In this document: positions 16,478 to 40,523 of the stretch, piece by piece
How positions within the stretch are numbered: the first letter of the stretch is position 1
Layout: every line of letters begins with the position of its first letter
Origin: Yersinia hibernica
Lineage (GTDB): Bacteria > Pseudomonadota > Gammaproteobacteria > Enterobacterales > Enterobacteriaceae
Assembly (NCBI RefSeq): GCF_004124235.1
Contig: NZ_CP032487.1
Location: 558,001 to 622,000, forward strand
DNA length: 64,000 bases
Reading direction: 5' to 3'
Notes under the pieces: generated by a model
What the model was told of the DNA's origin: nothing
Seen by the model: the letters and a program-made list of their open reading frames with translations, nothing else
Database searches by the model: none
Position numbers and translations under genes: made by a program

Positions 16478-17458
16478 ATAAGCCTTATTGAGTATAGTAT
16501 TTGTAACATACGACATAGTGTTGCTGGCGATCTATCTCCAAGAGGACCTTTGATAAAAAAATGTCAGTAAAGCAGGCATCTGAACATGAGGATGGTTGGA
16601 TGTCTGCTTTAAGCTTCACTGAATAGATTAACAAATACTTAATTTCATCTATTTACATACTTCAGGAAGCATGCTTTTAATTGGCGTGTTTTTGTGCAAC
16701 TGTTCCCACGAAAATAATATCATGATCTTAATATATTTTCTCGATGCCATTTTAGATAGTGATGATGCTGTGCCGAGAATGGTGGGATATTTTCAGGTAA
16801 GTTTAGTTGTGTTTTTACTTCAAAATCAAGTTCAGTGCTAATTAAGATGTGCCCATTATTACTAAATGACAGCCATCCTTGGTCAAAAAGAGCATCAATA
16901 TGAGCTGCCAATATTATTCCATTATAAGGATCCAGTCGCTCATGACCATTCTGGCACGCGGCCCAAGGCTTAATATGGCTAGCCCTTAACAGAGGTTGAA
17001 AAGAAATACCAGTTATAGGACAGGCAGGGAACAGTTTAAGGCATTTTTTCCTGAATTCACCTTGTCCAAGCCTTGAAGCGATTAATCGTTCTTTCATCGT
17101 TTCATCCAGACTTTTATCTTGTTGAATAGGTAATATATCAGCCAGTTTTTGTTCTGAGGGGGTTATCGACAGCCAAGATAGAATTTTTTGTTCAATAAGT
17201 GACTCTGATAGTTTGTTCATTTTGTTCATAACAGTCTGAGCAGACAACGGGAGCTCGCCAGGAGAACCATCAGCATTCCGCCAGCCTGTGCGTACAACAC
17301 TTAGCCACGAATCAAAACGATCACGGTGGTTTTTTAGACTGTTATAAAATTCAATTCTCGTCTTACCTGCACCAAATGTTGGATAAAATAGTGATATTGC
17401 AGCTTTCCATGTGTCAACACCTAGAACTTCAGGAGGCTTTTTTTTTCCATACTTAGCC

Positions 17459-18773
17459 GAGACTGTAATTAAAATTGTGTAATTGCCTGTTTTTGATATG
17501 TTCACTCCAACAACGGAGACAGGCAAATTATGGACGAGAAGAAACTTAAAGCTCTCGCTGCAGAACTGGCTAAAGGCCTCAAAACCGAGGCCGATCTCAA
17601 TGCGTTTTCCCGTATGCTGACGAAGCTTACCGTCGAAACAGCGCTCAATGCAGAGCTGACTGAACACCTCGGACACGAGAAAAATGCCCCAAAAACCGGT
17701 TCAAATACCCGCAACGGCTATTCATCCAAAACGCTGCTGTGCGACGATGGCGAGATTGAACTGAGCACGCCTCGTGACCGTGAAAATACCTTCGAGCCAC
17801 AGCTTATCAAGAAAAATCAGACGCGTATCACGCAGATGGACAGCCAGATTTTGTCCCTGTACGCCAAAGGCATGACAACCCGTGAAATCGTCGCCACATT
17901 CAAGGAAATGTACGATGCGGACGTGTCACCCACGCTGATATCTAAAGTCACCGATGCGGTTAAAGAACAGGTTGCTGAATGGCAAAGTCGGCCTCTGGAT
18001 GCGCTGTATCCCATTGTTTATCTTGACTGTATCGTGGTGAAAGTTCGTCAAAGTGGTAGCGTGATAAACAAAGCGGTGTTCCTCGCTCTCGGCATTAATA
18101 CTGAAGGTCAGAAAGAACTTCTGGGCATGTGGCTGGCTGAAAACGAAGGGGCGAAGTTCTGGCTCAGTGTGCTGACGGAGCTTAAAAACCGGGGCCTTCA
18201 GGATATTCTGATTGCCTGTGTGGACGGCCTGAAAGGCTTCCCGGATGCGATAAACAGCGTGTATCCACAGACGCATATCCAGCTTTGCATCATTCACATG
18301 GTGCGCAACAGCCTGAAATACGTGTCGTGGAAGGACTACAAAGCCGTCACCAGCGGACTGAAAACGGTGTATCAGGCTCCGACAGAAGCGGCGGCACTGA
18401 TGGCGCTGGATAACTTCGCGGCAACCTGGGACGATAAATACCCGCAAATCAGCAAAAGCTGGCGTGCGCACTGGGGAAATCTCAATACGTTCTTTGGCTA
18501 CCCGCCCGACATCCGCAAAGCCATCTACACCACTAATGCTATCGAATCGCTGAACAGCGTGATCCGTGCAGCTATCAAAAAGCGCAAAGTGTTCCCGACA
18601 GACGACTCAGTGAGAAAGGTTATTTATCTGGCGATCAAGGATGCTTCAAAAAAATGGAGTATGCCGATCCAGAACTGGCGGCTGGCGATGAGTCGTTTTA
18701 TTATCGAGTTCGGTGACCGCCTGAGCGATCACCTTTAATATGGTGGCAGTTACACAGAATTATTTACAGGGTC
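17459..18773 (+). mobile_element. IS256-family insertion sequence, complete
   Basis: The 1,315-base element is bounded by imperfect 29-base terminal inverted repeats, left beginning GAGACTGTAATT and right (reverse complement) GACCCTGTAAAT, both ending TGCC. The target duplication ACTTAGCC is present at 17451-17458 and 18774-18781. It encodes one transposase of 402 residues and interrupts the HNH gene at codon 18. The intact direct repeats suggest fairly recent insertion. Confidence 0.88.
17530..18738 (+). CDS. IS256-family transposase (mutator type)
   Basis: This DDE transposase has 402 residues. Seen are the N-terminal DNA-binding part (MDEKKLKALAAELAKGLK; RNGYSSKTL), the helical TTREIVATFKEMY region, and the catalytic core with Asp in VYLDCIVVK (about residue 164), Asp in IACVDGLKGF (about 230) and Glu in YTTNAIESLNSVIR (about 337), plus the IS256-type CxxH-like QLCIIHMVRNSLKYV. 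The frame is intact and all catalytic residues are present, so the element may be active. It is read opposite to the interrupted HNH gene. Confidence 0.95.
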   Translation: MDEKKLKALAAELAKGLKTEADLNAFSRMLTKLTVETALNAELTEHLGHEKNAPKTGSNTRNGYSSKTLLCDDGEIELSTPRDRENTFEPQLIKKNQTRITQMDSQILSLYAKGMTTREIVATFKEMYDADVSPTLISKVTDAVKEQVAEWQSRPLDALYPIVYLDCIVVKVRQSGSVINKAVFLALGINTEGQKELLGMWLAENEGAKFWLSVLTELKNRGLQDILIACVDGLKGFPDAINSVYPQTHIQLCIIHMVRNSLKYVSWKDYKAVTSGLKTVYQAPTEAAALMALDNFAATWDDKYPQISKSWRAHWGNLNTFFGYPPDIRKAIYTTNAIESLNSVIRAAIKKRKVFPTDDSVRKVIYLAIKDASKKWSMPIQNWRLAMSRFIIEFGDRLSDHL

Positions 18774-18874: not shown

Positions 18875-19636
18875 TTAAATCAGACTAATGATATTTGTGT
18901 TTATAAGAGAGTACAGATGATCACTAAGTGCTTCTGGAATCCCTCCGCCTGTAATAAGAACTCCTGCTTCAATGTTTCTCTCCATGGCATACCCAGTTAG
19001 ATTTGCGCTTGTAATAAAACAAGTGTGACCATCGGCAACAATTACTTTCGCATGCACGCGACCTTCTGAAAATTCATTGTTTTTATTATTCCAGGCGTAA
19101 ATATGTGCGCCAGGTATAAGCGTCTGCATCTTACCGATTATATCAATATTGATACTGCCACCATGCTCTTGTGAAGATTCCAGCAACATTGTAATGGTAA
19201 CGCCACGCTTTATAGCCATATTCAATTCATTCACAATACTCGACACATCATAGGCAACAAAGCTGGTAATAAATAAAGACTGTTTTGCCGCATTGATTAT
19301 TTGTAGCAGCACTTGCTCTGTACGGCGAACAGATACAAAAGGTGTTGTTGGACCAGTCCATACAAGTTCAGTACTTTGCTCAGAGCTAACTTTAAAGTAA
19401 ACATGGCTTGCAGCAAGAAGCATAGATGCTAGTTCATCTGAACTGACCATGGTGTTTCGCCATGCAATTGCTAGTCTCTCAATAGCTTTACTTGCCTTGG
19501 GAGTTCCTACTGCACCTGGCAGTACCAGCAGAGCCTTGCAGGCTTCAGTCCGTCGAATTCGGCCAGCGATCGCTTGTATCTTTTCAGGAGAAACTAGACA
19601 AACTAGCTCGGCAACAGCATCTAAGAGTTCATCCAT
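18875..19636 (-). CDS. drmC: DISARM protein DrmC, phospholipase D-like
   Basis: DrmC is the PLD-superfamily member of DISARM phage-defence systems, and is reported to be partly dispensable. The start MDELLDAVAEL at 19636 comes one base after the drmB stop and gives 253 residues. The PLDc_2 domain begins near residue 100 (VLLQIINAAKQSLFITSF) and has one HKD motif, HAKVIVADGHTCFITSANLTG (about residues 199-219). Only one HKD is visible, so a dimer would be needed for a full active site. It is the last intact gene of the leftward DISARM run; the HNH gene follows. Confidence 0.88.
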   Translation of the reverse strand: MDELLDAVAELVCLVSPEKIQAIAGRIRRTEACKALLVLPGAVGTPKASKAIERLAIAWRNTMVSSDELASMLLAASHVYFKVSSEQSTELVWTGPTTPFVSVRRTEQVLLQIINAAKQSLFITSFVAYDVSSIVNELNMAIKRGVTITMLLESSQEHGGSINIDIIGKMQTLIPGAHIYAWNNKNNEFSEGRVHAKVIVADGHTCFITSANLTGYAMERNIEAGVLITGGGIPEALSDHLYSLINTNIISLI

Positions 19637-19637
19637 G

Positions 19638-21503
19638 TTAAAAACCCTTAAAAAATGCAGCGTGAATACGCTCAAGTGTTGGTACTAATAGTGATCGATC
19701 CAAATAGCGATTGCCTTGCTCACAAGAGGTTTCTGCTACCAGAGTACATGCATGGCAGGCTGCGGCATGTAATGACCGATCTTTCTCCGGGTTATGTTCA
19801 GAACATAGTGGGTCAGAAGAACAGATCTTAGAACGATTTAATGCTTGTACCAGCAGGCGACCAAGATTCTCTGGTTTACCAAGATCTACAAGACCACCCA
19901 GTGTGCCATCAGAATCAGCTGCTGCCGTGTAGATCAAGATACCAGCTTGTGGACTGCCGTTTGATGTATCAGCATAGATACGTTCGCGAATACTTGCTGC
20001 GTTGTATCCACATTCCAGGGCTAGTTCACGGATCAACAAATGAGATAGGGTATGCAGCATGGCATATCGGATACCTGGGTAATCTTCATTCGGATCGAGA
20101 TTACGAGAGTTACGCCAACCGGTATGCCCACCACGAAGCATCTTGTCTACTTGCTTGACGGCATCCAGTGATTCCCAATCTACAAGAGCTTTTTCATCGA
20201 ATTGGATGAAGATACCTTCCCCATGCACCTGGTTAGCTGGCACCCATTCAGGTTTATTGCGTGCCAAGCTAGCCATCTGAGGACGTTCATTTATCTCTCC
20301 GGATCCTTCTGGCGCCTCTACTCGAGTAAAACCAAGCAGAGCATTAACCTCTCGTAGTCGTTCAAGTAGTAATACACGGCTGATGTACGGTATGAATTGT
20401 GCTGGGGTTCCGATCTTCTTACTCATGAAGTGTGGATAATCCGTGGGAGGGTTGGCCTCTGTCAGCACTTCCCATTCTGGACCTTTGATATCGGCTTCAC
20501 CTACAAATTCGCTATCGCCACCAGAACGATGCATTTCGATGGCTGACCAGATGTCTGACACGCTATATTTGTCGATTCCAGGGAGACCGCCAGTTAGCTT
20601 GAGTGTCTGCACAACGATGGGAACCATGACTTCAGCTGTAATTGCTTCAAAGAACGGCCATCCATCTTGAATCAACTGACTGAGAGGATTTTTTGTTTGG
20701 GGTATGGCCAATGCAGAAAGCGTTATCGGAAACCAGCTGTTTGTGGCTCCTAGCAGTACTGCCCGTGGTTCTTCACCGCAGTCAATGTCGAATTGATCCA
20801 AATGTGGGTGGCGACCTCGACAAGCTGGAAGATTTTCTTTACCGGCTTTGCCGAAGGCATGGGCCATGCTTCGTGATGCCTCACAGCTATCACACCGTAC
20901 CCACAGGTTTTCGGTTTGTAAGGATGCACCGCTCTCAAAGAAGCGCAGTGTCCCTTTGCAGGTACTATTGCCACCATGGACAAAGTAGTGCCAAGGAAAG
21001 TCATCTAGGTGACCGTCACGACAGGCAAGCAGAAAACGTGCTGGAACGGCATCAGCATCCTTAGCGGGTAAATTCCTTTTAGAACCTGTACAACCTTTGT
21101 GAACAAAGCGAGTTCGTTCGGCCCTGAATCGATCCTCTCTGATCTCAAGCAGACCATCATCAAAGGGCGACAACAAACCACACTTTACACAGCGCATCCA
21201 GCGAGGAAATGGACGAACAGGTACACCTATGTTGGCCTCGGCTGACCAAGGGTCAACGAGCTCACTTTTCTGAAAGGGCGGCATTCTCAAATTTTCGACT
21301 TGTGATCCTAATACTTTCCGAACAGCAGCAAGAAGCCGGGCCTCTTGAATTGGCTGGCAGCGATCTCGCTCCCACTGGTCAATACCTAGTGTCACTACAG
21401 ATAGGCTCGGTAGATCGATTAGCGCGCCAGGCCCATAAGTCCATAGCAACTGGCTTGGGCGTACTTCGCCGACTGGAGTTTTGTTATTGATGATCATATT
21501 CAA
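19638..21503 (-). CDS. drmB: DISARM protein DrmB (DUF1998)
   Basis: DrmB is a core DISARM protein that forms a complex with the helicase DrmA on DNA. The 621-residue protein begins with the family start VGEVRPSQLLWTYGPGALIDLP. Cysteine pairs that look zinc-binding lie at CVKCGLLSPF (about residue 108) and CDSCEAS (about 205), and a DUF1998 C-terminal block covers HTLSHLLIRELALECGYNAASIRERIY and CHACTLVAETSCEQGNRYLDRSLLVP (about 580-605). Its ATG overlaps the drmA stop by four bases (ATGA), so it is translationally coupled to drmA. Confidence 0.92.
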   Translation of the reverse strand: MNMIINNKTPVGEVRPSQLLWTYGPGALIDLPSLSVVTLGIDQWERDRCQPIQEARLLAAVRKVLGSQVENLRMPPFQKSELVDPWSAEANIGVPVRPFPRWMRCVKCGLLSPFDDGLLEIREDRFRAERTRFVHKGCTGSKRNLPAKDADAVPARFLLACRDGHLDDFPWHYFVHGGNSTCKGTLRFFESGASLQTENLWVRCDSCEASRSMAHAFGKAGKENLPACRGRHPHLDQFDIDCGEEPRAVLLGATNSWFPITLSALAIPQTKNPLSQLIQDGWPFFEAITAEVMVPIVVQTLKLTGGLPGIDKYSVSDIWSAIEMHRSGGDSEFVGEADIKGPEWEVLTEANPPTDYPHFMSKKIGTPAQFIPYISRVLLLERLREVNALLGFTRVEAPEGSGEINERPQMASLARNKPEWVPANQVHGEGIFIQFDEKALVDWESLDAVKQVDKMLRGGHTGWRNSRNLDPNEDYPGIRYAMLHTLSHLLIRELALECGYNAASIRERIYADTSNGSPQAGILIYTAAADSDGTLGGLVDLGKPENLGRLLVQALNRSKICSSDPLCSEHNPEKDRSLHAAACHACTLVAETSCEQGNRYLDRSLLVPTLERIHAAFFKGF

Positions 21504-24500
21504 TCCTCGTCATTCGTTGCAGGACGAGGCTTCCAATCGTGATCGTCCTTGATAAATTTGGTGTCCATAATCAGGCGTACTCCAGACTCAACTTCTCGCA
21601 TTGACATAGGTACAGTCCAGTTGTCCCACGCTTGAAGCCCTGGTGATTTGATCAACGCCACAGTCTTGTCTTTTTCGGGGCCTCTCTTTTCATATCCCAA
21701 AATTCGTCCGCCTTTACTGGCCTCTTTGGCCCATTCGTCGGCACGCTCTTTCAGTTCATTTTCAGCTAACAACTTACGTGTATTATCTTCTGCTACATTG
21801 CCTGCACGAGTCGCTAAAACTTCAATTGCATGAGCGAGTTCACTCTGGTTTGACATATCCAATTTACCCGCACCTTCATTCGGGCTGAACTCGTTATTCT
21901 TCAGACGCATAAGACTTAGCAACGACCCTGTCAAACCACGATCCATAGCACGTGGAGAGAATGGCGTTACCGATTGTGCCTCAACATGCTTGTAGAAGGT
22001 GGCGTGGTAATGTTCGAATGTTTCGTAATGAGAGAGGTCACGCGGTCGGGCCCACGTAAGTACGGTGCAAACTAGGCCGGGGAATGAACGTCCAACACGA
22101 CTGGTAGCCTGAATATACTCGGCCGTTCCCTTAGGTTGTCCATTCACTGCCATCAGGCCGAGTCTATTCACATCGACTCCCACTGATAGCATATTGGTCG
22201 CCAGCACTACATCAATAGCACGAGTATCACCCTCCTGCCATTTCGTTACGTATTTACCTGCAGAGTTATCAAACTCGGCCTTAAACTTGACCTCAAGATT
22301 GTCGAGGTACTTTGGGATATCCTGGCTGGATACACGAGAAGTCAATTCGCGGATGTTGTTGACACTACGTTGTGCCAATGCAGGCCGTTCCACCATGCTC
22401 ATTTGCACGCGATAGGAACGTGTCTGCACATCATCTTCTGCCAATCGCTTCATTCCACCTAGTTCACGCAGAGAGTTGAAGTAGCCGACCATAGTCATAT
22501 AAGGATCAGCAGGTTCACCGAAGTGGTCAAATAGTTCCTGTGCCGCAGTTAAGAAAGCGGTATAGACACGAATAAGCATTGCTGGGCGCGAGCTACCGGG
22601 TGAGCAGACTCCCAGATAACGTCGCCCAAATTTATCCTTAATGTGGCGTTGAACTGAGAAGAAGTTATCTTCCACATCTAGTCCATGTGGCGGGAATACC
22701 GAAACTTGACGCATAAATACATTATTTACTTGTTCTTTGGCTTTGCGCACCGTCGCCGTTGAGGCGATGATTTTCGGTTTTACTGTTTTTCCGTTGAGCG
22801 TCCAGCTACACAGCTCATCGACGGCAGTTTCATACAAACCTACCATGGTACCCAGTGGCCCACTTATTAGGTGGAACTCATCCTGGATTATTAAATCAGG
22901 TGGTCGGATGGGGGGGATGGCCTTCACTTTAGCTGAAGGTTGTCCTTTGAATGCTTGGTGGTTTCCAGTGCAATTGGCCCCAGGCCAGAGTAAACCGTGC
23001 CGCTCACATTCTTTTTCAACTCGGCCAAAAAGAGTCCGCACTTGGCCACGCCATGCCATCATGGCGAACTTATCCACTGTGGCAATCATCATTGTCGGAG
23101 GACGATGGTAGATTTCTTCATCTACCACCAGTACTGGTATTCCAGGGTGTAGTTGCTTGCTGGACTTTCCCTTGGAAAATTCGCAACGTCCTTTTTTGTC
23201 ACCACAATAGATAAACGTTCGGCCGCCAGCTTTATCCTTTTTAACTTCGACATCTTGCCCAGGAATGATTTCGGTACCACACCATGGACAGCTGGTAAGT
23301 TGGACGGGTGAGGCTGTTCCCGCATTATAACTACCCGGGTTACGTGTTTTTTCGATAGCATTATGGCTATCTTCAGTCGTTCCCGGAGTCACTTTATTGC
23401 CGACCCATAGGCCAATAGTGAATGGCTCCGTTCCGAGGGACTTATCACCCTTATTTAGTGCCTCGCGTCGCAGCACTTCCATTGCACAAATAAGTGCTGT
23501 AGCACGCTGGAACTGTTGCAGTGTCAGCAAACGAAGGGTGTAACGCATTATCACAGTCAAACCACGTGAGCTATCGTACCCGCCTAGATTGCCCTGCATA
23601 CGTCGAATGGCCATGGTGAAGGCGGCTACACCCAGATAGGCTTCAGTCTTACCACCCCCGGTAGGAAACCACAACAGGTCCGCATAAGCCTCAATAGGTT
23701 TGACTCGGTCTGGGTGACACGGATCCGCCAGGGATGGAATCGACAGCAACAGAAAAGCTAACTGGAATGGACGCCAGCTGCGGTTCTTCAGAGCATCGAA
23801 CTTATCTAGGGTAACGTCCTCGCCTCGGCGCATGGCAAGTGCATACAAGCTGCGTATACGCTGCGTGGCCATCGCTTGGTTGGCGAAACGGAAGGCCGCC
23901 AGAGCATTCTCATTATGCTTAAGTGTATTGATACCTTGTTGCAGGCGGGTATGGATCTCCTGACAACGATCTAAGGCCGCTTGGGCTTGGGTTTTGAAGC
24001 CCTTGGCCTTGCTGCTCACATTCAAGTTCTGTTCATCAATCCAGGTAGCGTAGTCATTAGTTAGCACACTCAAGGCATCAACTAATGGGTCAATGTCCAA
24101 AGTGGCTAGTCGTTGCATATCAAGCAGACCACTGCTGACCATTTCTCGCATAGCTGGACGATCGGATAGCTCAAGCCCAGGAGTCTCAGTTGCCTGAACT
24201 TCGTACTGTGGCATCACTGTGGTACGCACTTCGGTGGCTAGTGTGACGTCATCCGCTATTTCTGCATGAACTGCAACTCCATGACCCACGGCGAACTCGA
24301 CACGATCTCGGTAGATCATCTCAAGTGCTTCGCGCTCTGGGTCCATACCATCTGCATCTAGTACCGGCCTGCGCCTGAAAATGGCAGGCTTGGCAGCATC
24401 TTTCTCTGCTCGAACGATCAGCTCTGGTTGAAACACCCATGCCGTATCACGGTTTGTATCCGGTTCTTCCTGCGCATTAACGAGGAAGAGTGTAATCAGT

Positions 24501-25477
24501 CGATCACCATTGTCATTTTTGGCTCGAATAGAGCCCTGCACTCTAACTTCCGGGGAAGTACTATCCGGAGCATTGTGTGAAATCGAGCCTTCGATCAGGG
24601 GGAGTACGATCTTGCCGCCACAAGGAATGCGTTTCCACACCTTAGCTTTTTGCCCATTGGACTTAAAGAATTGATGTTCATCATTTGGCACACGCTCATA
24701 CCGTCCCCAACGCGCTTCGATCTCAACCCGATCGACGTCGCCATCCACGCAGAAAGTCATGCCGAGGCTACTGGGCACCAATGACTGATTGCTGGCGGCA
24801 TCAATCTCTTCTGCCGTGTCGGTTTCGCCGCTACCAAGGACTGAGGGAGAGTTCACCTTTGCAGTCTTCGCTTTGACGATCAGGTCTGGCTCTTGATCTT
24901 CAATATCGTCAGCATCAACAGGAAACTCTTGTCCTCTTTCGGCTGCTTCACGTGGGGCGAGTTTGCCAACTAGGTAGCGGTCGCGTACACCCATATCGAC
25001 GATGAGCTCATTAGGGCCACCAGCAGGGCCAAGCAAGTCGTCCATCACCGCCAGTTGCAGCAGTTCGCGGATGTAAGTTTGATCCTCGATCTTTGGTATG
25101 TCTGCAATGGTTATGTGGAACTCTTTAGGCAAGGTCTCAATGAAGTCAGTCCATTGGATACGACCCGCTCTGTCTTTGGGAGGAAATTTGAATGGGGTTA
25201 TGCCGATCGAAACCACCGACTTAACCTGCAACATTCGATCGAAAAAGATAGTTGTGGTTTCAAGATCAGAACGTATCCGCAGGATTCGTCCAACTCGCGT
25301 GATATTACCTGTAGTATCTAGGACTAAGATCCAATCATTGTCGGAGATGGCTTGGTGCAGTGAATGTTCACCTTTTAACTGTAGCGTGTAGTATGTTAAT
25401 ACTTGAGCTCTTGAAAAGTTATGGTCAATGGCGATCCAAGCGTTCGGTGTTTTACTAGATTTGTTGTTATCAGTCAT
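21500..25477 (-). CDS. drmA: DISARM helicase DrmA
   Basis: DrmA is the large SF2-type helicase shared by all DISARM classes, thought to load on phage DNA with DrmB. It has 1,325 residues. Walker A is seen in LLWFPTGGGKTEAYLG (about residue 605), a DEFH box in LIIQDEFHLISGPLG (about 866) and helicase motif VI in YIQATSRVGRSFPG (about 1126). A cysteine cluster CPWCGTEI...CGDKKGRCEF (about 730-760) probably binds zinc. The first 600 residues are the DISARM-specific N-terminal region. It starts 12 bases after the small 68-residue gene, with GGGAAG as ribosome site, and overlaps drmB by four bases. Confidence 0.94.
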   Translation of the reverse strand: MTDNNKSSKTPNAWIAIDHNFSRAQVLTYYTLQLKGEHSLHQAISDNDWILVLDTTGNITRVGRILRIRSDLETTTIFFDRMLQVKSVVSIGITPFKFPPKDRAGRIQWTDFIETLPKEFHITIADIPKIEDQTYIRELLQLAVMDDLLGPAGGPNELIVDMGVRDRYLVGKLAPREAAERGQEFPVDADDIEDQEPDLIVKAKTAKVNSPSVLGSGETDTAEEIDAASNQSLVPSSLGMTFCVDGDVDRVEIEARWGRYERVPNDEHQFFKSNGQKAKVWKRIPCGGKIVLPLIEGSISHNAPDSTSPEVRVQGSIRAKNDNGDRLITLFLVNAQEEPDTNRDTAWVFQPELIVRAEKDAAKPAIFRRRPVLDADGMDPEREALEMIYRDRVEFAVGHGVAVHAEIADDVTLATEVRTTVMPQYEVQATETPGLELSDRPAMREMVSSGLLDMQRLATLDIDPLVDALSVLTNDYATWIDEQNLNVSSKAKGFKTQAQAALDRCQEIHTRLQQGINTLKHNENALAAFRFANQAMATQRIRSLYALAMRRGEDVTLDKFDALKNRSWRPFQLAFLLLSIPSLADPCHPDRVKPIEAYADLLWFPTGGGKTEAYLGVAAFTMAIRRMQGNLGGYDSSRGLTVIMRYTLRLLTLQQFQRATALICAMEVLRREALNKGDKSLGTEPFTIGLWVGNKVTPGTTEDSHNAIEKTRNPGSYNAGTASPVQLTSCPWCGTEIIPGQDVEVKKDKAGGRTFIYCGDKKGRCEFSKGKSSKQLHPGIPVLVVDEEIYHRPPTMMIATVDKFAMMAWRGQVRTLFGRVEKECERHGLLWPGANCTGNHQAFKGQPSAKVKAIPPIRPPDLIIQDEFHLISGPLGTMVGLYETAVDELCSWTLNGKTVKPKIIASTATVRKAKEQVNNVFMRQVSVFPPHGLDVEDNFFSVQRHIKDKFGRRYLGVCSPGSSRPAMLIRVYTAFLTAAQELFDHFGEPADPYMTMVGYFNSLRELGGMKRLAEDDVQTRSYRVQMSMVERPALAQRSVNNIRELTSRVSSQDIPKYLDNLEVKFKAEFDNSAGKYVTKWQEGDTRAIDVVLATNMLSVGVDVNRLGLMAVNGQPKGTAEYIQATSRVGRSFPGLVCTVLTWARPRDLSHYETFEHYHATFYKHVEAQSVTPFSPRAMDRGLTGSLLSLMRLKNNEFSPNEGAGKLDMSNQSELAHAIEVLATRAGNVAEDNTRKLLAENELKERADEWAKEASKGGRILGYEKRGPEKDKTVALIKSPGLQAWDNWTVPMSMREVESGVRLIMDTKFIKDDHDWKPRPATNDED

Positions 25478-25489
25478 ATGTGCTTCCCA

Positions 25490-25696
25490 TCAATCATCAA
25501 ATGCACCAACGCCATCTGGATTCTTACCTGCCTTGAGCATTTCAAACTCTTTTAGGAACTGTTCTAGCGATTCTCGTGCAGAGTCTGGAACGAGGCCTTT
25601 TTGTCGCAGGCCTATCAGGCGCTCATAGCAAGCTTGAGTGTCAATATATTGTTCTATCGGGTCTGAGCTTGGACGATCAGTAGAGAGATTAGTCAT
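25490..25696 (-). CDS. Small 68-residue protein encoded between drmMI and drmA
   Basis: I do not recognise this protein. It starts with an ATG whose A is the last base of the drmMI stop (TAATG) and ends 12 bases before drmA, so it is firmly inside the operon and translationally coupled. The sequence is mostly charged and helical: DPIEQYIDTQACYERLIGLR then a second helix SARESLEQFLKEFEMLKAG and a short acidic tail GVGAFDD. There is no signal peptide, metal site or membrane segment. A helical adaptor between the methyltransferase and the helicase is an inference from position only. Confidence 0.75.
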   Translation of the reverse strand: MTNLSTDRPSSDPIEQYIDTQACYERLIGLRQKGLVPDSARESLEQFLKEFEMLKAGKNPDGVGAFDD

Positions 25697-28600
25697 TAGT
25701 TCGCACCATCAGACAAATCAAGTAAGTTTACCGTAGCGTCTGCTTTTGAGCGGCGCCCGCGTTTAACTGGATTAGCAGCATTTTTCTGAGTCAACGAAAA
25801 CTCCTCAAAACGTTGCCGGTTTAGCTCAGTAAGTCGTCGCATCAACTCTGTTGTTAGGTCTTCTGAAAGTGCCCAGCGCCACGGGTCTCTTACTGAGCCA
25901 CTATTGAACTCCTGAAAATCGTATGAAATATCAAGATCATTCCATCCATAAGCCTGTGCAACTTCAGCGTCTATTCCAACCATTATTTGGCGTAGTTCGT
26001 TTATGACGGGATCATTGTAGCTTGGCGTGTTTACGGCATTCATTGCGCTGGTTAAACCACAGTTATTTTGCTCGCTCCATGCGACGAGAACGTTTTGAAA
26101 ACGTTGTGCATAGTTACAACCGACATTCGAAACTCTCGTTATTGGTAACGTGAAAGTTGATACAGCTTCTCGAATGGAAAGCGTGAGTGTATTAGTGTCT
26201 GCCCCCAAACTACGGACAGAGAATGCATAGAGCCAGCTTCGGAAAAATGAGCTTAAACAAATGGCATAAAGATCATCTCTATCTGCACCAATAAGCAGGA
26301 TTTTATTTGTATAGATCCATTCAGTGGGAGTCATTAAGCAAAACGGATACTTGGTCACCTTTGCGAAGGCAATGAAATATTCTTGTTTGCGCAACTTGCG
26401 CATGAGCTCGGCTCGATGGTTCCAGAATTGCCACCAACGGTCATAGAGTCCTTTGTAGCTTTTCAAGGCTTGAGGAGTTCGGGTTGGTTGAACTTCTTGA
26501 ATTAAAAATTGGAATGCAATGGGCCAGTTTTTCTCAATGTCTTCCAGATTTCTGTCTGCGATATCCAGAGCCCAACGGTCGGTTCTACGAAGTGCATAAC
26601 TTGTTATATCGTCTCCGGTGATGTATGGGCGCAGAAGGCTATTCGATTCGTTTTTGAGTTGATAGAACCAAGGATTTTCTTCGGTTAATACAAATGCCAT
26701 CCCCTTGCTATTATTTACGCCCTCAAAACTTATGATAGAATCAGGCTGCTCTTTGGGTATCCAAGTATCCGTAGCTTCCGGTTCTAAACGTGCACCGATA
26801 CGATTACAAGAATTCCCCTCAGAATCACATTTTCCTGCCCATCGTCCTTTGAAAAAACCAATAACAGCAACAACTACAGAAGCTGTACCAGGCCATGGCA
26901 TACCTTTTCTGGAGAAATATATGTGACCGTTTTTAACGATCATACCCAGACCAATAGCAACCGCGCTTCCTTCGGCGATGTTGCTTGCGGCCAGCAAACC
27001 ATAACATCCATCTGCTCGAAGCAAATCGACAACACGCCGATGGAAGACAACACTTAAGTCGATTTTACCGGGCGGTGTTCCTAGAATCATCTGACATTGC
27101 CATTGCAACTTATCACCCATTGAACTTTTCCATAGGCGATTACCGAGAAATGGTGGGTTTCCTACGAATGCATCAAATCCGGATCGTTCTCTTAAAAAAA
27201 CTTCGGGAAATTCTAAAGGCCAATGGAATGGCCGCCGTGCATGTCCAAGTGTCAGATCACTGGTAAAGGAGTTGGAAATACGGTTTGCAATAGATTGAGT
27301 AGCCTCAATGCTTCCACCTACTGCCTGGTCTGCCAAAATGGAGAGTGAGGAAAGCGCATTCTCTAGTGTGGGCGAATTGCCCCCGGAGACCAATACCTCG
27401 GTAATAAACGCATCGGCAATTAGTTTATGCACTTCAAGATGGCCACGAGACCTAGCATCTAAACTAGCCATGATCTCTACGTCGTGAATGTCACGTATTG
27501 GCATAGCGCGCAAACGTTGGCGAAGTTCGATTGCTTGTCGTACTGATCTCTCTATGTCTTTGCCAAACAGACGGTCACTTCGTTTTCCCTTTTGTTCTGG
27601 TGTCATGCATAATTTGGTGAGCTGGTCCAACCGATGAATACCAAGCAGACTGTCTCCACAACGCAGACTGTGATCAAGAAAGCCGAAGGGCAGCCCTTTC
27701 GCCAGTGTTACCAGCCAGATGGAAAGCTTGGCAAGCTCGACTGCCAGCGGGTTCAAATCTACACCATATAAGCATTGCTCGGCGATGAGGCGTCGGGCTA
27801 TTACGATACGTGCATCAGTATCTCGTGGTAGCCGCTCCTTAGTATCCAGATCCTCCAGTACGTCTCCGTCCACACTTATCATTTTTCCTGTTGCTTCAGC
27901 CTGCGACCAGGCTTCGACGAGGCGATCGGCCAACCAGCGACAAGCCTGTACCAGAAAAGCACCCGAACCCATCGCAGGGTCACAGATTTTAAGGTCGAGT
28001 AGTTCAGTGGGGGATTTGAGTTGCCACGCTTTACGCGGTGTGCCTTCAGCCGGGCCGATGTAGGCTATCGGTGTTAGCGTTTCAGTAACGATGTTTTCAG
28101 TAAGCGATTTTGGTGTGTAGTGGGTGCCAGTCTCGCGTCGGTTGGAACCGCTTGTGACGATGAAGGCACCAGCGGGGTAGACTAGCGGATAACCCCAAGG
28201 GTCAGTGCGCAGCAGATGGGCGTAAGGTTTGATACGGTCACGTAACTGGATGTCACCTTGGCAGGTAGTGAGTAGGCGATCAGCCAAGGTATCATCAACG
28301 TCCCTGGCCAGATCTTTGCGCACCCGGCTGACAGAACTACCGAAGCGCTCTTGCAGCAACTCAACTAGCTTCTCAGGACTGTTCATGCTTGCTGAATCTA
28401 GCTCGGCTAGTTTGACCCATGGATACTGTGATTTCTTGGTGGCATCCAGTTCCAGTGTGACTTCATCGGTGCGCCTTACGGTGCGTTCCAGCAGACCTTC
28501 ATACACGTAACCGATTTGTTCGACGTCCAGTGCGCGATATGAGAGTGTTCGGCCCTGGAATTGCTGGATAGCCTCTAGCAACAACAGAACTGTGCGGTTA

Positions 28601-29775
28601 TCAATCGGCAGTGGCTTGGCTGTATCTGTCCGCCAACTGGAACCTTTAGCCCGTCCTTCCAGAAAAGGAAAATGATCAGGATCGAATAGTGAACTACCCA
28701 GTGCAGGCAGACGAAGATTTTCATGTTCCACCCCGCAGAAAACAGCACGGAAGACCGCCAGTAGGCGCGACCAGGCATCCCAGCGTCGTTCTAGGATTTC
28801 TTCGGGTACCTTGCGTAACTGCATACGTAAGGTGGAAAGTGCATAGTTGGCTTCGTATCGTTCATCGCCCAAAAGAAGCAGGCCGCGCTCCTCTGCCGAG
28901 AGCAGAAACACTAAGCGCATCATCACTGTCAGAGCCGCTTCATAGAGTTCGGATTCTTTTACGTTGTAAAGTAGTTCACGGTTGCGATCCTGATCAGCTT
29001 TATCAAGGGACTGGATTAATACTTCTACAGCGCGACGTACTTGTTCTCCCAGTGCATCGGTTACTTCATCCTGATATTTCAGAGAACTGTCGAACAATGC
29101 GGGTAGTTGTTCGGATTCATCGACGAAGAAACGGCGGATACCGAGCAGGTGCACGAAGGCCTGCAGTGTTATGGGCTCCTGGTTCCAGATTCGAGCATAC
29201 CAGCTGGCGAAGCTGGTGACAGCGCCTACAGGGGCATCCACCAGCATCCAGCGTTCGCCATTGGTCACCAAACCAAGGCGACACTCCCTAGAGCGGCACA
29301 GCTGAACCATACGTTCCGTGGGTGTAGTGGCCCATCCGTCTATTTTCAACGTTGCGTCAAGATCGATATCTTGCGCATAGGTATGAATGAGCATCAAAGG
29401 CTTGTTCGCACATTGCTCGTCGACAATTGCTAGAGTAGGTGACAGAGCTATGCCATGATCAGGGAGAAAAGTGTTCAAGTTGGCGGCGCACCAATCTGTG
29501 CCCTTCAGTACATCACCTTTCCCGTCCTCATCAAACTCAAGGCCACGTGAAAGAACTTCTTCAATCCACGCGAAATGCAATTTGTTGAACTGAGGATCTT
29601 CTTGTTCCAGTGCTTCTCGCCACTCATCGTAAGCTTGGCGCAGTCGTTTGCGCTTAGCAGCGTCTAGCTCTTCCAGCCCTTGCGGGAATGCATCTTTTAG
29701 TACTGGTACAGCAAGGAAGGGGCCTGAAATGTCGATTAGCGAGAGCCAATCATCGTGTATGCTGGCCATACTCAT
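25696..29775 (-). CDS. drmMI: DISARM adenine-specific DNA methyltransferase DrmMI
   Basis: This large N6-adenine methyltransferase of class 1 DISARM marks host DNA as self. It has 1,359 residues. The SAM-binding motif DPAMGSGAFLVQACRWLADRL lies near residue 600 and the catalytic NPPF in FVGNPPFLGNRLW near residue 876. Between them YGVDLNPLAVELAKLSIW is the motif II-III region of Eco57I-like enzymes. The N-terminal 500 residues and the C-terminal target-recognition region (about 1000-1300) have the layout of fused type IIG/BREX PglX-like enzymes, but no nuclease motif is evident. The ATG overlaps the drmD stop (ATGA). The recognition sequence cannot be predicted. Confidence 0.9.
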   Translation of the reverse strand: MSMASIHDDWLSLIDISGPFLAVPVLKDAFPQGLEELDAAKRKRLRQAYDEWREALEQEDPQFNKLHFAWIEEVLSRGLEFDEDGKGDVLKGTDWCAANLNTFLPDHGIALSPTLAIVDEQCANKPLMLIHTYAQDIDLDATLKIDGWATTPTERMVQLCRSRECRLGLVTNGERWMLVDAPVGAVTSFASWYARIWNQEPITLQAFVHLLGIRRFFVDESEQLPALFDSSLKYQDEVTDALGEQVRRAVEVLIQSLDKADQDRNRELLYNVKESELYEAALTVMMRLVFLLSAEERGLLLLGDERYEANYALSTLRMQLRKVPEEILERRWDAWSRLLAVFRAVFCGVEHENLRLPALGSSLFDPDHFPFLEGRAKGSSWRTDTAKPLPIDNRTVLLLLEAIQQFQGRTLSYRALDVEQIGYVYEGLLERTVRRTDEVTLELDATKKSQYPWVKLAELDSASMNSPEKLVELLQERFGSSVSRVRKDLARDVDDTLADRLLTTCQGDIQLRDRIKPYAHLLRTDPWGYPLVYPAGAFIVTSGSNRRETGTHYTPKSLTENIVTETLTPIAYIGPAEGTPRKAWQLKSPTELLDLKICDPAMGSGAFLVQACRWLADRLVEAWSQAEATGKMISVDGDVLEDLDTKERLPRDTDARIVIARRLIAEQCLYGVDLNPLAVELAKLSIWLVTLAKGLPFGFLDHSLRCGDSLLGIHRLDQLTKLCMTPEQKGKRSDRLFGKDIERSVRQAIELRQRLRAMPIRDIHDVEIMASLDARSRGHLEVHKLIADAFITEVLVSGGNSPTLENALSSLSILADQAVGGSIEATQSIANRISNSFTSDLTLGHARRPFHWPLEFPEVFLRERSGFDAFVGNPPFLGNRLWKSSMGDKLQWQCQMILGTPPGKIDLSVVFHRRVVDLLRADGCYGLLAASNIAEGSAVAIGLGMIVKNGHIYFSRKGMPWPGTASVVVAVIGFFKGRWAGKCDSEGNSCNRIGARLEPEATDTWIPKEQPDSIISFEGVNNSKGMAFVLTEENPWFYQLKNESNSLLRPYITGDDITSYALRRTDRWALDIADRNLEDIEKNWPIAFQFLIQEVQPTRTPQALKSYKGLYDRWWQFWNHRAELMRKLRKQEYFIAFAKVTKYPFCLMTPTEWIYTNKILLIGADRDDLYAICLSSFFRSWLYAFSVRSLGADTNTLTLSIREAVSTFTLPITRVSNVGCNYAQRFQNVLVAWSEQNNCGLTSAMNAVNTPSYNDPVINELRQIMVGIDAEVAQAYGWNDLDISYDFQEFNSGSVRDPWRWALSEDLTTELMRRLTELNRQRFEEFSLTQKNAANPVKRGRRSKADATVNLLDLSDGAN

Positions 29776-32700
29776 GCTTCCCCCCTCTGAACAGTAGATT
29801 CAGGTACTAGGAAGGTAACAGCAACGGGAAAAGTACGATCGTCGAGTTTAGCGTAGCGAGTTTCGATGGCTTGGATCTCCTGTTCACGCTCTTCAGGAAT
29901 ACGTAAAAGGCGAGCTTTCAGAGCTGCGGTGTCACGTTTGAGCTGGGTTCGTTCATCCTCTGAGAACAGTGAAAATTGCTCAGGTTGTTGATCTTTTTTT
30001 AATTCGATACAGATGGTTTTTTCAAGTTCATCAAGCACTGTGCTAATGTCCGTCAATTCTCGATTCTTACTGAGCTGAAGAGTATTACTCAAATCTTTGA
30101 GCCGGTCTTTTGACCTAGCGTTCACTGACTGTAAAATAGCGTGTTGTGCACGCTCAAAACGAATACGGATATCATCAAATAGTGAGTCAGAAGCTGTCAT
30201 TGGCTTACTATTATCTAGCCATAGCTGAACTTTACTGACCCCTTCTTCACGGCGGAAGGATTTATCCCCAAGATAACCTCCAGCTGTTGTCAACTCTTCG
30301 TGGAGGCGATGGTAATTGCCTCCGGTGATAACCAGCCTTGAACTAACTACTACGGCAAGGCCATCAATTAGTGTGTCGGGCACCGAACGTACAGTAACAC
30401 GATGCAACTTCTTCACGTCATCGCGAGCCCATACTTCTGCTCGTAACAGACGTAGGCACATCTGTACCAGTCGATGATTCAAATGAACGAGTACGACATC
30501 GTCACGTCCTCTCGCAACGGTATGGTCAAAGGTGATAGGGCGAGTTTGCAGAGTATAGGGATGGCGTAGCCCCTCCAGGCAACGAGCCCAGGATCCTGAC
30601 AATGCTGGCATTTTGAATGTTGAACCAGCTGGAGCATCCGGAAGAGCAAACGGCTCCAAATGTGGTCGGCCTGCCAAAGAAAGTCCCGTATTTACAGCCA
30701 TAAGGATATGTTTTGGCGTGAGATGGAAATCGTTTTGAGTGGATAGTAGCCGGTCGTGTAACCGGGCTATCCGCTCTTTCAGTTCACGATCGGCGCTAAC
30801 GAATCGTTTAGTTTTGGCAATCCGAGCTTCTGCAATACGAGTATCAAAACCCCTGATAGATCCTTCAATCAACTTCGACATCTGTGGCGCGATAACCGGA
30901 TTGACACTACCCATGTCTGATCGCATAGATTCGAGCTTACGTAGAGCTCGGATGATGTCTCCACTATGGCCTCCAATGCTAGCTTGGCTATTTTCATCGC
31001 CATCGACAGGATGCCAGATCAATACTTCTTTCTGGCGTTGACCATGACGGTCAATACGACCATTGCGCTGCTCCATGACATTGGGATTGTAGGGAATCTC
31101 AAGATGGATTAAGCAGTTACAGTGGTTCTGCAGATCGATACCTTCAGATGCTGCATCGGTAGCAAGAAGAATACGAACGGCAGAGTCTTTGGGAGCGGTC
31201 TGGAAGGCTGCTTTTACTTTCTCACGTTCGTCCTGCGCTATACCACCATGTAAGATCGCAAGGCGCTCCCCACCAAATCCATGGCTGGCTAGGATCTCAT
31301 GTATCCACTGGAGGGTAGTGCGATATTCAGTGAACAGAATTACCCGATGTTCGTTCCAATGACCGTTTGTTTTCAGATTGGTATCAAGCCAGCTGAGCAC
31401 GGCTTTAGCTTTGGAATCGACTTGGTTTCTGGCTATCTGTGCCCATTTACGTAGTTCACTCAGCATTTGTTGCTGGTCGGTCGTGAGCGGCTGAGCTCGA
31501 CATGAAGCTTCTTCAACAGCCTCAGATTGCGCGTTCTCTACCTCTTGGTCGTTAGCGTAATCTTCATCAACACGAAGAATAGCTTTGCGCAAGATGCGGT
31601 CGTCCATCGGACTATTATCACTACGCAGGTTTCCATAAGTCAGACTAGCGATGTGTTTTTCGAGTGTTGATGCGAAGGCCGCAGGGGAGGAAAAGAGCCG
31701 TTTTTTTAGTAGCTGATTCACGAAAGCAGTTCCGAATGTGCTAACGGTTTTCTCTGCACCTAGTTCTCGGCTCTTACAGTAGTCATTGAGTTTTGAGTGA
31801 ATTTCGCGTTCTTTGGCAGTGTAGAAGATCGGTAAGGCTTCAAGCTTACGTTGGGCGTAAAGTAGATTGCCGTCAGCATCGACGAGATCGCTCTTGAGGC
31901 GACGAATCATTACTTGATTGAGCTGCTTATCGTCCGGGAGTATATTTCTGGCGAAACGTTGGTCATCCAGAAGTTCGAGCAGTGAGGTGAAGGATTCGGT
32001 ATAGCCATTATGTGGCGTAGCGGTCAGAAATAACCTGTGCTGGAAGTGAGGACTGATTGAACGGATGAAGCGCGTTCTCTGACTCTCTAATGCGTAGTTT
32101 GCCCCAGCAGCCGGTGCGATATTATGTGCTTCGTCAATGACCAATAGATCGAACTTGCGTGGGTAGCTGCTATACAAGGGCAACACATCGCGCATAGCTC
32201 TCAAGCCTTCGCCACTTTTGGCCCAATCCATGGATGTGATCAGACGAGAATGCGATGTCCACGGGTTGGCATGGATCCCTCGTTCTCGGCGTAATTGCTT
32301 GATATAGCGAGTGTCGACGATTTGAAATTCCAGTCCAAACTTTTCCTGCATCTCCATCCGCCACTTTTCCTGTAGCGACGCAGGGCAGATAATCAGGACT
32401 GTACGGGCTCGATGCCGAAGCAGCATTTCCTGAATGATTAATCCTGCCTCGATAGTCTTACCTAAACCGACATCATCGGCTATGAGGAGATTGACACGTG
32501 CCATATCAATTGCACGCACCAACGGATCGAGTTGGAAGTCTTCTATACTAACGCCACTTCGAAATGGGGCCTGCAGGAAGCCTCGGTTAGCATTAGTGGC
32601 TGCTCCCCAGCGCACTGCGTCAAGGAAAGCATCAAGAGTGCTGGAGTCGTCTTGGCCACTGATTGTGGGCAGCCCAGCTCGTTCAATAATCTGGGCACCT

Positions 32701-32912
32701 ACCTCAATTTCCCAAATAACCTCAAGTTCTTCCCCCAAACCATCTTCATCAATAGATGACAAAGTTACTGCATGCTGTTGAGCTGAGGCAGGTAACAATT
32801 GAGATGAAGTAACTTCCACAACAATCCATTGACGCCGACGGACCTCAACCAACTGACCGGGTTCTGGAATAGTTCGCTGTACTCGGATATCAGGTGTATT
32901 AGAAATTTCCAT
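29772..32912 (-). CDS. drmD: DISARM SNF2-type helicase DrmD
   Basis: DrmD is the class 1-specific SNF2/HepA-like ATPase. It has 1,046 residues. Walker A is in LIADDVGLGKTIEAGLIIQE (about residues 143-162), Walker B DEAH in LLVIDEAHNIAPAAG (about 255-270) and the SAT-like LTATPHNGY near 298. The C-terminal helicase motifs LLATDAASEGIDLQNHCNCL (about 584-603) and RNGRIDRHGQ (about 619-628) are present. The C-terminal 300 residues contain charged helices and no known nuclease motif. It follows the cytosine methyltransferase gene by 49 bases and overlaps drmMI by four bases. Confidence 0.92.
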   Translation of the reverse strand: MEISNTPDIRVQRTIPEPGQLVEVRRRQWIVVEVTSSQLLPASAQQHAVTLSSIDEDGLGEELEVIWEIEVGAQIIERAGLPTISGQDDSSTLDAFLDAVRWGAATNANRGFLQAPFRSGVSIEDFQLDPLVRAIDMARVNLLIADDVGLGKTIEAGLIIQEMLLRHRARTVLIICPASLQEKWRMEMQEKFGLEFQIVDTRYIKQLRRERGIHANPWTSHSRLITSMDWAKSGEGLRAMRDVLPLYSSYPRKFDLLVIDEAHNIAPAAGANYALESQRTRFIRSISPHFQHRLFLTATPHNGYTESFTSLLELLDDQRFARNILPDDKQLNQVMIRRLKSDLVDADGNLLYAQRKLEALPIFYTAKEREIHSKLNDYCKSRELGAEKTVSTFGTAFVNQLLKKRLFSSPAAFASTLEKHIASLTYGNLRSDNSPMDDRILRKAILRVDEDYANDQEVENAQSEAVEEASCRAQPLTTDQQQMLSELRKWAQIARNQVDSKAKAVLSWLDTNLKTNGHWNEHRVILFTEYRTTLQWIHEILASHGFGGERLAILHGGIAQDEREKVKAAFQTAPKDSAVRILLATDAASEGIDLQNHCNCLIHLEIPYNPNVMEQRNGRIDRHGQRQKEVLIWHPVDGDENSQASIGGHSGDIIRALRKLESMRSDMGSVNPVIAPQMSKLIEGSIRGFDTRIAEARIAKTKRFVSADRELKERIARLHDRLLSTQNDFHLTPKHILMAVNTGLSLAGRPHLEPFALPDAPAGSTFKMPALSGSWARCLEGLRHPYTLQTRPITFDHTVARGRDDVVLVHLNHRLVQMCLRLLRAEVWARDDVKKLHRVTVRSVPDTLIDGLAVVVSSRLVITGGNYHRLHEELTTAGGYLGDKSFRREEGVSKVQLWLDNSKPMTASDSLFDDIRIRFERAQHAILQSVNARSKDRLKDLSNTLQLSKNRELTDISTVLDELEKTICIELKKDQQPEQFSLFSEDERTQLKRDTAALKARLLRIPEEREQEIQAIETRYAKLDDRTFPVAVTFLVPESTVQRGEA

Positions 32913-32961
32913 ATTGTTTCCAGGCTCTAATTCAGCGAAGCTAATGATTAGTAAAGAGTTG

Positions 32962-34014
32962 TCATTCCACAGTGACCATATTCACATTTGCAAGATGTGA
33001 ATTAATGCTACGTGCAATTGCTCGGCCAAGTTCAACAGGAACTGCATTCCCGATTAGGCGCCCTAGAATCCTTAAACTTACTGGCCCATCATGGGGAATA
33101 AATGCATAGTTACGGGGAAAACTCTGAAGAATTGCCGCTTCTCTCAGGGAGATTGCGCGGTTCTGTTCAGGATGCCCAAATCGACCATTTCCGAAACCAT
33201 AGCACTGCGTTGTCATGGTTGGTGCTGGTTTGTCCCATTCCATACGGCCATAAACACTAGCGTAAGTTCTGCCACTTTCTGTTCGATGACAATCGGCAAC
33301 AAGATGTTCTGGCCAGTCACGCCAAGTTCCTCCTGGTTTTGAGGCCTTAATACGCTCCAGATTCTTATCTGACAATGTGGAGGTAACATGCAGTTTATCT
33401 CCTGGAGCCGCTTCACCAGCATTTAATGCGCGCAGATGGCCTATAGCTTCTCTTACTGTTTTGGGTTTTGCACACGTTGGAGAAGACATTTTTATCTCGC
33501 CATGGAGTGATGCCAATAAAACCATTCTCTTACGTGTTTGTGGGACACCGAAATGAGTGCAATCAACAATGCTAAACCATACGCTGTAGCCAATACACTT
33601 CAATGCCTCGACGAAGTCGTGGAACACTTGGTGTTTAGCCACAGTAGGAACATTTTCCATCGTGATCACGTCTGGGCGAGTACCTTCTGCTAGGCGTGCA
33701 AACTCATACAGGAGCCCCCATTTACCATCCTTACCATCCGATTCATAACGTTGTGTATAGGTAGAAAATGGTTGGCAAGGCGCGCAGCCAGCGAGAATTT
33801 TGATGTCAGCATCGCCAAACAATGCATCTAATTCGGTTGTTGTTACTTTGCTTATATCCCGTTCTATAAATTTGGCATTGTTGTTTGATTCATAAGGAAA
33901 TTTGCAGGCCGGATCCATGTCAATTCCTGCAACTACAGGTAAGCCTTCAAGTACAAGGCCATGCGTTAATCCACCTGCACCACAAAACAAATCGACACAA
34001 GATACTTTCTTCAT
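32962..34014 (-). CDS. C5-cytosine DNA methyltransferase at head of the DISARM operon (DrmMII-like)
   Basis: This 350-residue enzyme has all the main C5-methyltransferase motifs: motif I DLFCGAGGLTHGLVLEG (residues 8-24), motif IV with catalytic cysteine AGCAPCQPFSTYT (about 75-87), motif VI ENVPT (about 120-124), motif VIII QTRKRMVLLAS (about 159-169), and motifs IX-X ISLREAAILQSFP and RLIGNAVPVELGRAIA near the end. The target-recognition region is short (about 190-250). It is the first gene of the leftward DISARM run. Class 1 DISARM is defined by the adenine enzyme and class 2 by a cytosine enzyme, so its presence beside drmD and drmMI is notable. Whether it truly belongs to DISARM or is a separate guard methyltransferase is not shown. 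Confidence 0.88.
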   Translation of the reverse strand: MKKVSCVDLFCGAGGLTHGLVLEGLPVVAGIDMDPACKFPYESNNNAKFIERDISKVTTTELDALFGDADIKILAGCAPCQPFSTYTQRYESDGKDGKWGLLYEFARLAEGTRPDVITMENVPTVAKHQVFHDFVEALKCIGYSVWFSIVDCTHFGVPQTRKRMVLLASLHGEIKMSSPTCAKPKTVREAIGHLRALNAGEAAPGDKLHVTSTLSDKNLERIKASKPGGTWRDWPEHLVADCHRTESGRTYASVYGRMEWDKPAPTMTTQCYGFGNGRFGHPEQNRAISLREAAILQSFPRNYAFIPHDGPVSLRILGRLIGNAVPVELGRAIARSINSHLANVNMVTVE

Positions 34015-38952: not shown

Positions 38953-39136
38953 GATTCGATTTTGTCGGTAGTGCGATTTAATTAATTGCTAAAGCCTGCA
39001 GTTGCTGAGCTCTGAAAAGGTCATGTATGAAAAGAATATCAGTTGAATTTGGTACCACTCTTGATGTTTGCTTGAAGCTTCTGCTTCGGATCAACGCACA
39101 GCATCGACTTTTCATCATATTAGACCAAGGCGACTG

Positions 39137-40063: not shown

Positions 40064-40523
40064 GGTCAAGGAGCAAAAACGGCTTCGCTTCGAACGGCGA
40101 CCGTCACCAGTATTAGCTGAACATAGGCCTATGTATAAGATTGGGCAAGTGTTGCTTATCCTGTCTCTGGCTTCTCGCGGAGGGAAGTCAAGTTTACCGC
40201 GCCTGCAACTATTCAACTGGGCTATGAAGTCGACCAAACGCCAGCAACAGTTGGTCCTAGCTGTTGAAGAGAAAATCTTGCAAGTTCCCGCATGGGGTTT
40301 CGATCCTGCATTAGCTATTGCTGTTCGACTTGCCATTGCGGAAGGCTTAATCATTGAAAACTCCACTGGCTATGAGATTTCGACGGCTGGGAAAGTCTTT
40401 ACCAAAGAAATATTGAAAGACTCCAATTTGTTCGGACGCGAGCGTTCGTTTCTATCTGATATCGGAAAAGGGCTGACAGAGAAAATGATCGAAGCAACTG
40501 CTAGTGGCTGGGAGGCACAGTGA
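40056..40523 (+). CDS. Small middle component of an ABC-three-component-like system
   Basis: This 155-residue protein is predicted helical with a winged-helix look: YKIGQVLLILSLASRGGKSS (about residues 27-46), then helices with ALAIAVRLAIAEGLIIENSTGYEISTAGKVFTKEIL (about 86-121), whose strand pair resembles a wing. Such middle components link the ATPase and effector in ABC-3C systems. It overlaps both neighbours (8 and 4 bases), so the three genes form one translationally coupled unit. The role is inferred from the gene order, not from a recognised motif. Confidence 0.6.
   Translation: MVEVKEQKRLRFERRPSPVLAEHRPMYKIGQVLLILSLASRGGKSSLPRLQLFNWAMKSTKRQQQLVLAVEEKILQVPAWGFDPALAIAVRLAIAEGLIIENSTGYEISTAGKVFTKEILKDSNLFGRERSFLSDIGKGLTEKMIEATASGWEAQ

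Follow-up and report, generated by a model that had tools for sequence, protein, structure and literature searches.

Does the pairing of an adenine and a cytosine DNA methyltransferase in one class 1 DISARM (defence island system associated with restriction-modification) operon mark an unusual variant, and does the cytosine enzyme belong to the system at all? The question is raised by a locus of Yersinia hibernica in a 64000-nucleotide (nt) stretch of contig NZ_CP032487.1 (positions 558001 to 622000), the whole of which was analyzed and is called the window below. We consider, with a probability of about 0.72, that this is a complete class 1 DISARM operon using two host marks, and that the C5-cytosine methyltransferase (C5) gene is a working self-marking part of it and not an add-on. 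This conclusion is carried by the gene content, the near-identity to a studied system, the near-constant place of the C5 gene and the parallel divergence of C5 and DrmD. A class 1 architecture with two methylases is already in print; the locus is known in kind and nearly in sequence, and is not a new kind of system. The operon consists of the following genes, for which NCBIfam (NF) scores are given with their cut-offs.

32962 to 34014, minus strand: C5-cytosine DNA methyltransferase gene, drmMII-like, at the operon head (PF00145, 199 bits; PADLOC DrmMII, 310 bits)
29772 to 32912, minus strand: drmD, SNF2-like helicase (NF038317, 1376 bits, cut-off 610; GLGKT at 149, DEAH at 260)
25696 to 29775, minus strand: drmMI, MmeI/Eco57I-like N6-adenine methyltransferase (PADLOC DrmMI, 1727 bits; PF07669, 57 bits)
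25490 to 25696, minus strand: 68-residue open reading frame (ORF), an in-frame internal-deletion scar of a 713-residue KAP (PifA-like) NTPase gene (end matches to L016:17184-19325)
21500 to 25477, minus strand: drmA, SF2 helicase (NF038325, 1512 bits, cut-off 950; PDB 7s9v_A, 3019 bits)
19638 to 21497, minus strand: drmB, DUF1998-type partner of DrmA (NF038324, 757 bits, cut-off 240; PDB 7s9v_B; a TTG-started ORF reaches 21503)
18875 to 19636, minus strand: drmC, PLD-family nuclease (NF038319, 261 bits, cut-off 133; PADLOC DrmC, 385 bits; a TTG-started ORF reaches 19675)

The first-pass annotation had already described this run with the correct content, order, strand and coordinates. The profile search that it proposed was run with PADLOC, Pfam and NCBIfam, which together identified every large gene far above chance and in agreement with it. 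Its class 1 assignment and its claim that both an adenine and a cytosine methyltransferase are encoded were likewise borne out, as drmA, drmB, drmC and drmD exceeded their NCBIfam cut-offs and drmMI was recognized by PADLOC and by its motifs. All five genes that define class 1 are thus present. In PADLOC, class 1 is defined by these five core genes with drmE prohibited and the C5 gene not among the required genes, and class 2 by drmA, drmB, drmC, drmE and drmMII. Class 2 systems also have a C5 methyltransferase, and DrmMII is the top PADLOC model for the C5 protein of the window (MTase_II was the runner-up with 292 bits). However, a drmMII-like C5 gene is insufficient alone to define class 2, which needs drmE. 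No DrmE model was found among the best 25 PADLOC matches of each of the 20 window proteins scanned, and the locus instead has drmD and drmMI.

Patterns for the methyltransferase motifs I, IV, VI, VIII, IX and X were all matched in the C5 protein, so that its catalytic motifs are intact. DrmMI has DPAMGSG at 599 and NPPF at 873, and its sole E-x-K lies at 727, outside the N-terminal region. The Walker boxes are retained in both helicases, DrmD and DrmA (in the latter GGGKT at 607 and DEFH at 866, with V1296 also kept), and DrmC has a single H-x-K-x4-D motif at residue 208.

The class 1 DISARM of Serratia sp. SCBI (PMC9142583; PDB 7s9v and 7s9w) is nearly the same system. DrmA of the window aligned with 7s9v_A over 1325 of 1325 residues, with 17 differences in about the first 1000, and DrmB differed from 7s9v_B at 12 of 619 residues (both counted by eye); the two proteins are about 98% identical to those of Serratia. 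According to that paper, the Serratia operon contains both an N6-adenine and a C5 methyltransferase, with the motifs ACAC(mA)G and YMT(mC)GAKR, and DISARM operons are described as having "DrmMI and/or DrmMII" (PMC9142583). The structure, ATPase and anti-phage activity of DrmAB were demonstrated for that system, methylation-dependent self-discrimination was reported, and the ATPase of DrmAB was lowered on DNA containing 5-methylcytosine (m5C) (PMC9142583).

On this model, DrmMI would place N6-methyladenine (m6A), and the C5 enzyme m5C, on the host DNA, and both marks would help to tell self from non-self. DrmAB would load on unmodified DNA with a 5'-overhang and act on unmarked DNA, as published for Serratia. 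The m5C mark would damp the DrmAB ATPase, and the C5 gene would therefore be a working self-marking part. We infer that the copy in the window is active and that both methylases methylate the host.

How usual the C5 gene is was counted by scanning genome contigs with DrmD; the best 80 of the 161 relatives returned were retained as related loci. In 72 of the 80, a relative of the C5 gene is the gene immediately upstream of drmD, in the same orientation; among the other eight it is 6.2 kb off in one, none occurs within about 10 kb in six, and the contig ends in one. In a viral collection it was found at nine of ten loci, the tenth being cut at the sequence edge. The distance matrices of C5 and DrmD were correlated (r=0.82; 82 loci including the window), when the highest value of 999 permutations was 0.18. 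DrmMI tracked DrmD about as tightly (r=0.82; 60 loci). Thus the proteobacterial branch of class 1 usually includes the C5 gene. The label "extended" given by the first-pass annotation, and with it the idea of an unusual class 1 variant, has to be dropped in view of the 72 of 80 operons and of the Serratia operon, which according to PMC9142583 has both methylases. This removes a false lead: a C5 gene heading class 1 DISARM is usual in Proteobacteria and not exotic, and its frequency has now been counted.

The first-pass annotation had also allowed that the C5 gene could be independent; it might then be an unrelated methylase that lies upstream by chance. Its separation from drmD by 49 nt, without overlap, and the occurrence of the wider C5 family without DISARM are in keeping with such an explanation. 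However, a placement common to 72 of 80 loci and a divergence that follows that of DrmD largely refute it, and we regard a chance neighbour as very improbable.

Several observations nevertheless weigh against a self-marking role of the C5 gene, or limit it. Six of the 80 loci (L010, L046-L049 and L067) have DISARM genes and no C5 match within about 10 kb upstream, so that not every class 1 system needs the gene. In distant class 1 loci it was found in none of seven, with 1.6 to 10 kb of upstream DNA searched. These comprise six plasmid records (out of 26 with a DrmD coverage of 80% or more) and genome G253, with DrmD 30-55% identical. The tally of C5 genes at the head of class 1 loci that the first-pass annotation had called for is high in the 80 related loci and nil in the seven distant ones searched. 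Over the same 41 loci, DrmA follows DrmD more closely (r=0.90) than C5 does (0.81), and shared descent can also yield the co-divergence of C5 and DrmD. Among the window proteins used as PDB queries, DrmA and DrmB alone matched Serratia chains, and the Serratia C5 enzyme lies outside this comparison. In addition, a class 2 system is reported to restrict a phage still when it is methylated by the system's own C5 enzyme (PMC10286901 citing Ofir et al.; PMC9142583), so that m5C alone may not mean self.

The plasmid record of Microvirga pR24_2 (65% identity) carries both a C5 gene and a gene for Vsr, the enzyme that starts the repair of deaminated m5C. At 49 of the 80 loci a gene for a Vsr-like mismatch endonuclease separates C5 from drmD (in three as short matches of 46, 56 and 88 residues), which counts in favour of our reading of the C5 gene; the 49 nt gap in the window holds none. 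We found no statement on the C5-Vsr pair, or on the slot between drmMI and drmA described below, for DISARM in the literature consulted (PMC11090510, PMC12458937, PMC10286901 and PMC10740426 besides PMC9142583), most subscription papers and preprints being outside the search. Vsr-type domains are described in ARMADA and Druantia helicases (PMC12458937), which is distinct from the C5-Vsr pairing. The counts of C5 and Vsr, the reading of the 68-residue ORF as a scar and the link of the C5 family to slot-type effectors are modest additions made here.

The slot between drmMI and drmA holds exchangeable cargo. At least one tested accessory gene was matched over at least half its length in 46 of 72 evaluable loci and none of the tested genes in 26, while eight loci could not be judged. 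The queries L39, L48, L71 and L73 were left out of this census because they matched nearly all drmMI sites and were taken for drmMI C-termini. GHKL_b and GHKL_c cross-match, and the 20 loci counted for each are mostly shared. Among the occupants are GHKL ATPases, a GHKL and O-methyltransferase-like pair, a KAP NTPase (PifA-like), PDC-S39, an AspBHI-like modified-DNA endonuclease, a UvrD helicase and an NsnA-like pair. AspBHI-like genes, classified by PADLOC as methyl-directed restriction enzymes, occur in the slots of L014, L048, L077 and L084; three of these four operons encode a C5 enzyme, and in them the motifs must therefore be compatible. Defence genes inserted within another defence operon are known from guilt-by-embedding work (Payne et al. 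2024 as cited in PMC12988326 and PMC12255303), and the slot resembles such cases in that it houses embedded genes, the PADLOC entry PDC-S39 among them.

The same effector families lie beside relatives of the C5 gene outside class 1 DISARM. In a sample of 369 genomes of the same class, ten had a C5 relative (E 1e-70 or better) and three a DrmD relative (E 1e-150 or better); both were present in the own genome and in G394. According to the first-pass annotation, its reading would fail if the C5 gene stood without DISARM in most relatives. The outcome is divided: C5 genes with at least 70% identity, found in the own genome and in G394, belong to class 1 DISARM loci, and the other eight, with 51-64% identity, are outside it, i.e. 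the nearest genes are tied to DISARM and the wider family is not. Neighbours of the eight are a GHKL ATPase in four (L121, L123, L124 and L126) and an NsnA-like pair in two (L122 and L125), so that six of them adjoin clear slot-type effectors. These six restriction-like loci share with the window the C5 family (49-56% identity, tblastn) and with the slots the effector families; they differ in having no drmD or drmMI match in the 11-17 kb searched. A 4-nt overlap joins the C5 gene of L123 to the GHKL gene. The product of the latter is scored as a type II restriction enzyme, and its C-terminus has a weak Shedu-like match that stays below the cut-off. Among the 369 genomes, all three GHKL_b relatives adjoin a C5 gene of the window's family, as do two of the eight NsnA relatives.

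The last two of the eight, L119 and L120, have C5, Vsr and distant drmA/drmB-like genes and are an unclassified DISARM-like arrangement. In L119 (7941-17129) the genes for C5, Vsr and a NERD/UvrD helicase converge on the drmA/drmB-like genes, and likewise in L120; a sigma-70-like gene stands beside the drmA/drmB-like pair of L119. The helicase that follows Vsr in L119 is weakly like the slot UvrD helicase of L011 (38% over 60 residues). It is 99% identical to that of L120, and the two loci are therefore near-copies and not two independent cases. A tree of 91 C5 proteins places L119 and L120 within the DISARM C5 genes; the other six sit on long branches, with unsure placing, beyond the main DISARM set. 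Seven rows that form a minor DISARM group are likewise outside the main set, and the DISARM C5 genes are therefore not shown to form a single clade.

From these neighbourhoods it could be argued that the C5 gene is primarily part of a layer of m5C restriction built into the DISARM operon. The partner of the C5 enzyme would then be the exchangeable effector between drmMI and drmA (a GHKL-type restriction enzyme or an NsnA-like pair), DISARM proper would use m6A, and in the window the slot would have been gutted and the C5 gene orphaned. The six of eight C5 relatives that adjoin slot-family effectors, the overlap and restriction-enzyme score in L123 and the three of three GHKL_b relatives speak for such a layer. 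However, two of the four GHKL neighbours are just 26-29% identical to slot proteins, the near-copies L119 and L120 have a helicase with no more than a weak likeness to the single slot helicase used for comparison, and just two of eight NsnA-like relatives adjoin a C5 gene in the DNA searched. No C5 link turned up for the KAP or PDC-S39 occupants, although no search was aimed at one. The C5 gene is kept in 22 of 65 C5-bearing evaluable loci without any tested slot effector, and L048 has a GHKL effector but no C5 gene, both of which weigh against the strict form of this explanation. Moreover, m5C is reported to damp DrmAB itself (PMC9142583). We therefore hold a restriction layer of this kind to be rather unlikely. 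A role of the C5 gene in self-marking for DISARM remains our preferred reading, and the mark may in addition protect against slot effectors. It can now be tested which effector each methyl mark protects against, DrmAB or the swappable one in the slot.

A wider proposal, which we offer tentatively and with more doubt than confidence, would make the class 1 DISARM of Proteobacteria a composite, in which an m5C layer (C5 and Vsr), with its exchangeable effector in the drmMI-drmA slot, is interwoven with an m6A-marked core. Burdensome effectors would be removed by in-frame deletions that keep the first and last codons, with translation running on into drmA. The 68-residue ORF of the window and a 109-residue S39/GHKL fusion in L047 would be such scars.

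For the 68-residue ORF, the first-pass annotation listed a 68-residue protein of the operon. It has no match at E 0.001 in PADLOC, Pfam or NCBIfam. Its residues 1-13 correspond to the start, and 8-68 to the end (651-713), of the protein encoded by L016:17184-19325, a full-length protein of 713 residues that matches PF07693 (205 bits) and PADLOC PifA (386 bits). As judged from these alignments, the ORF is a deletion scar in which the first 13 and the last about 55 residues of a KAP NTPase are joined in frame. Only the two ends remain, without any Pfam match, and the KAP/PifA P-loop NTPase domain is not retained. It might instead be a novel, functional small subunit of DISARM, being an open frame within the operon that overlaps the drmMI stop. 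However, it was matched in only six of the 80 loci, all of which carry a KAP gene, and in L015 and L020 drmMI abuts drmA with nothing between. Together with the matches to the KAP ends, this led us to reject the small subunit, which is highly improbable.

In L047 (17166-17495) a like scar of 109 residues is an in-frame fusion of 57 residues from the start of S39 with the final 52 of GHKL_b, and further KAP deletions, with different junctions, are suggested by the metagenome proteins P0007, P0008 and P0017. When the window and 26 slots that are short or empty were searched for remnants, matches were found only in the window, in L047 and in L053 (a partial AspBHI-like gene). In-frame scars are therefore not what empty slots usually show. 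Translation into drmA would be preserved if both ends stayed in frame, but a frame bias is not proven, the protein search being blind to out-of-frame scars.

The first-pass annotation further held that the genes are joined by stop-start overlaps from drmD onward. Overlaps were found at two junctions, drmD/drmMI and drmMI/68-residue ORF; a gap of 12 nt separates this ORF from drmA, and drmB and drmC abut. It is unlikely that drmB and drmC start at the listed TTG codons: the DrmB of the PDB entry starts at an ATG two codons past the listed TTG, and the homology of DrmC starts at residue 14, where an in-frame ATG follows the drmB stop. As the ATG starts are likelier, the two genes abut and do not overlap. 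In a search for a promoter ahead of the C5 gene (32900-34600), a single consensus match was found at 33516, inside the C5 gene, and shuffled sequences gave more.

Among 147 genomes taken as relatives (own included), DrmD was found at E 1e-100 or better in the own genome only. The host core near valS/pepA shares about 80% DNA identity with E. coli, as fits an enterobacterium. The operon looks like part of a genomic island linked to tRNA-Leu, where the island starts and a tyrosine integrase is found. An attachment-site repeat was sought as a further exact copy of the final 16 to 60 bases of the tRNA-Leu gene, and none was found within the window. An HNH endonuclease ORF (16720-18738) looks truncated, with its start inside an IS256 transposase ORF, and was probably cut by the IS256 insertion. 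Just upstream of the DISARM operon lies a GmrSD/DUF262 gene pair (34477-37959). The block from about 34410 is 98.3% identical to E. coli DNA, whereas the DISARM operon had no E. coli match at megablast sensitivity, and the GmrSD block is probably a separately moving module. The same island carries relatives of LmuA, LmuC and LmuB in a row (39068-42556), which constitute a Lamassu-like system.

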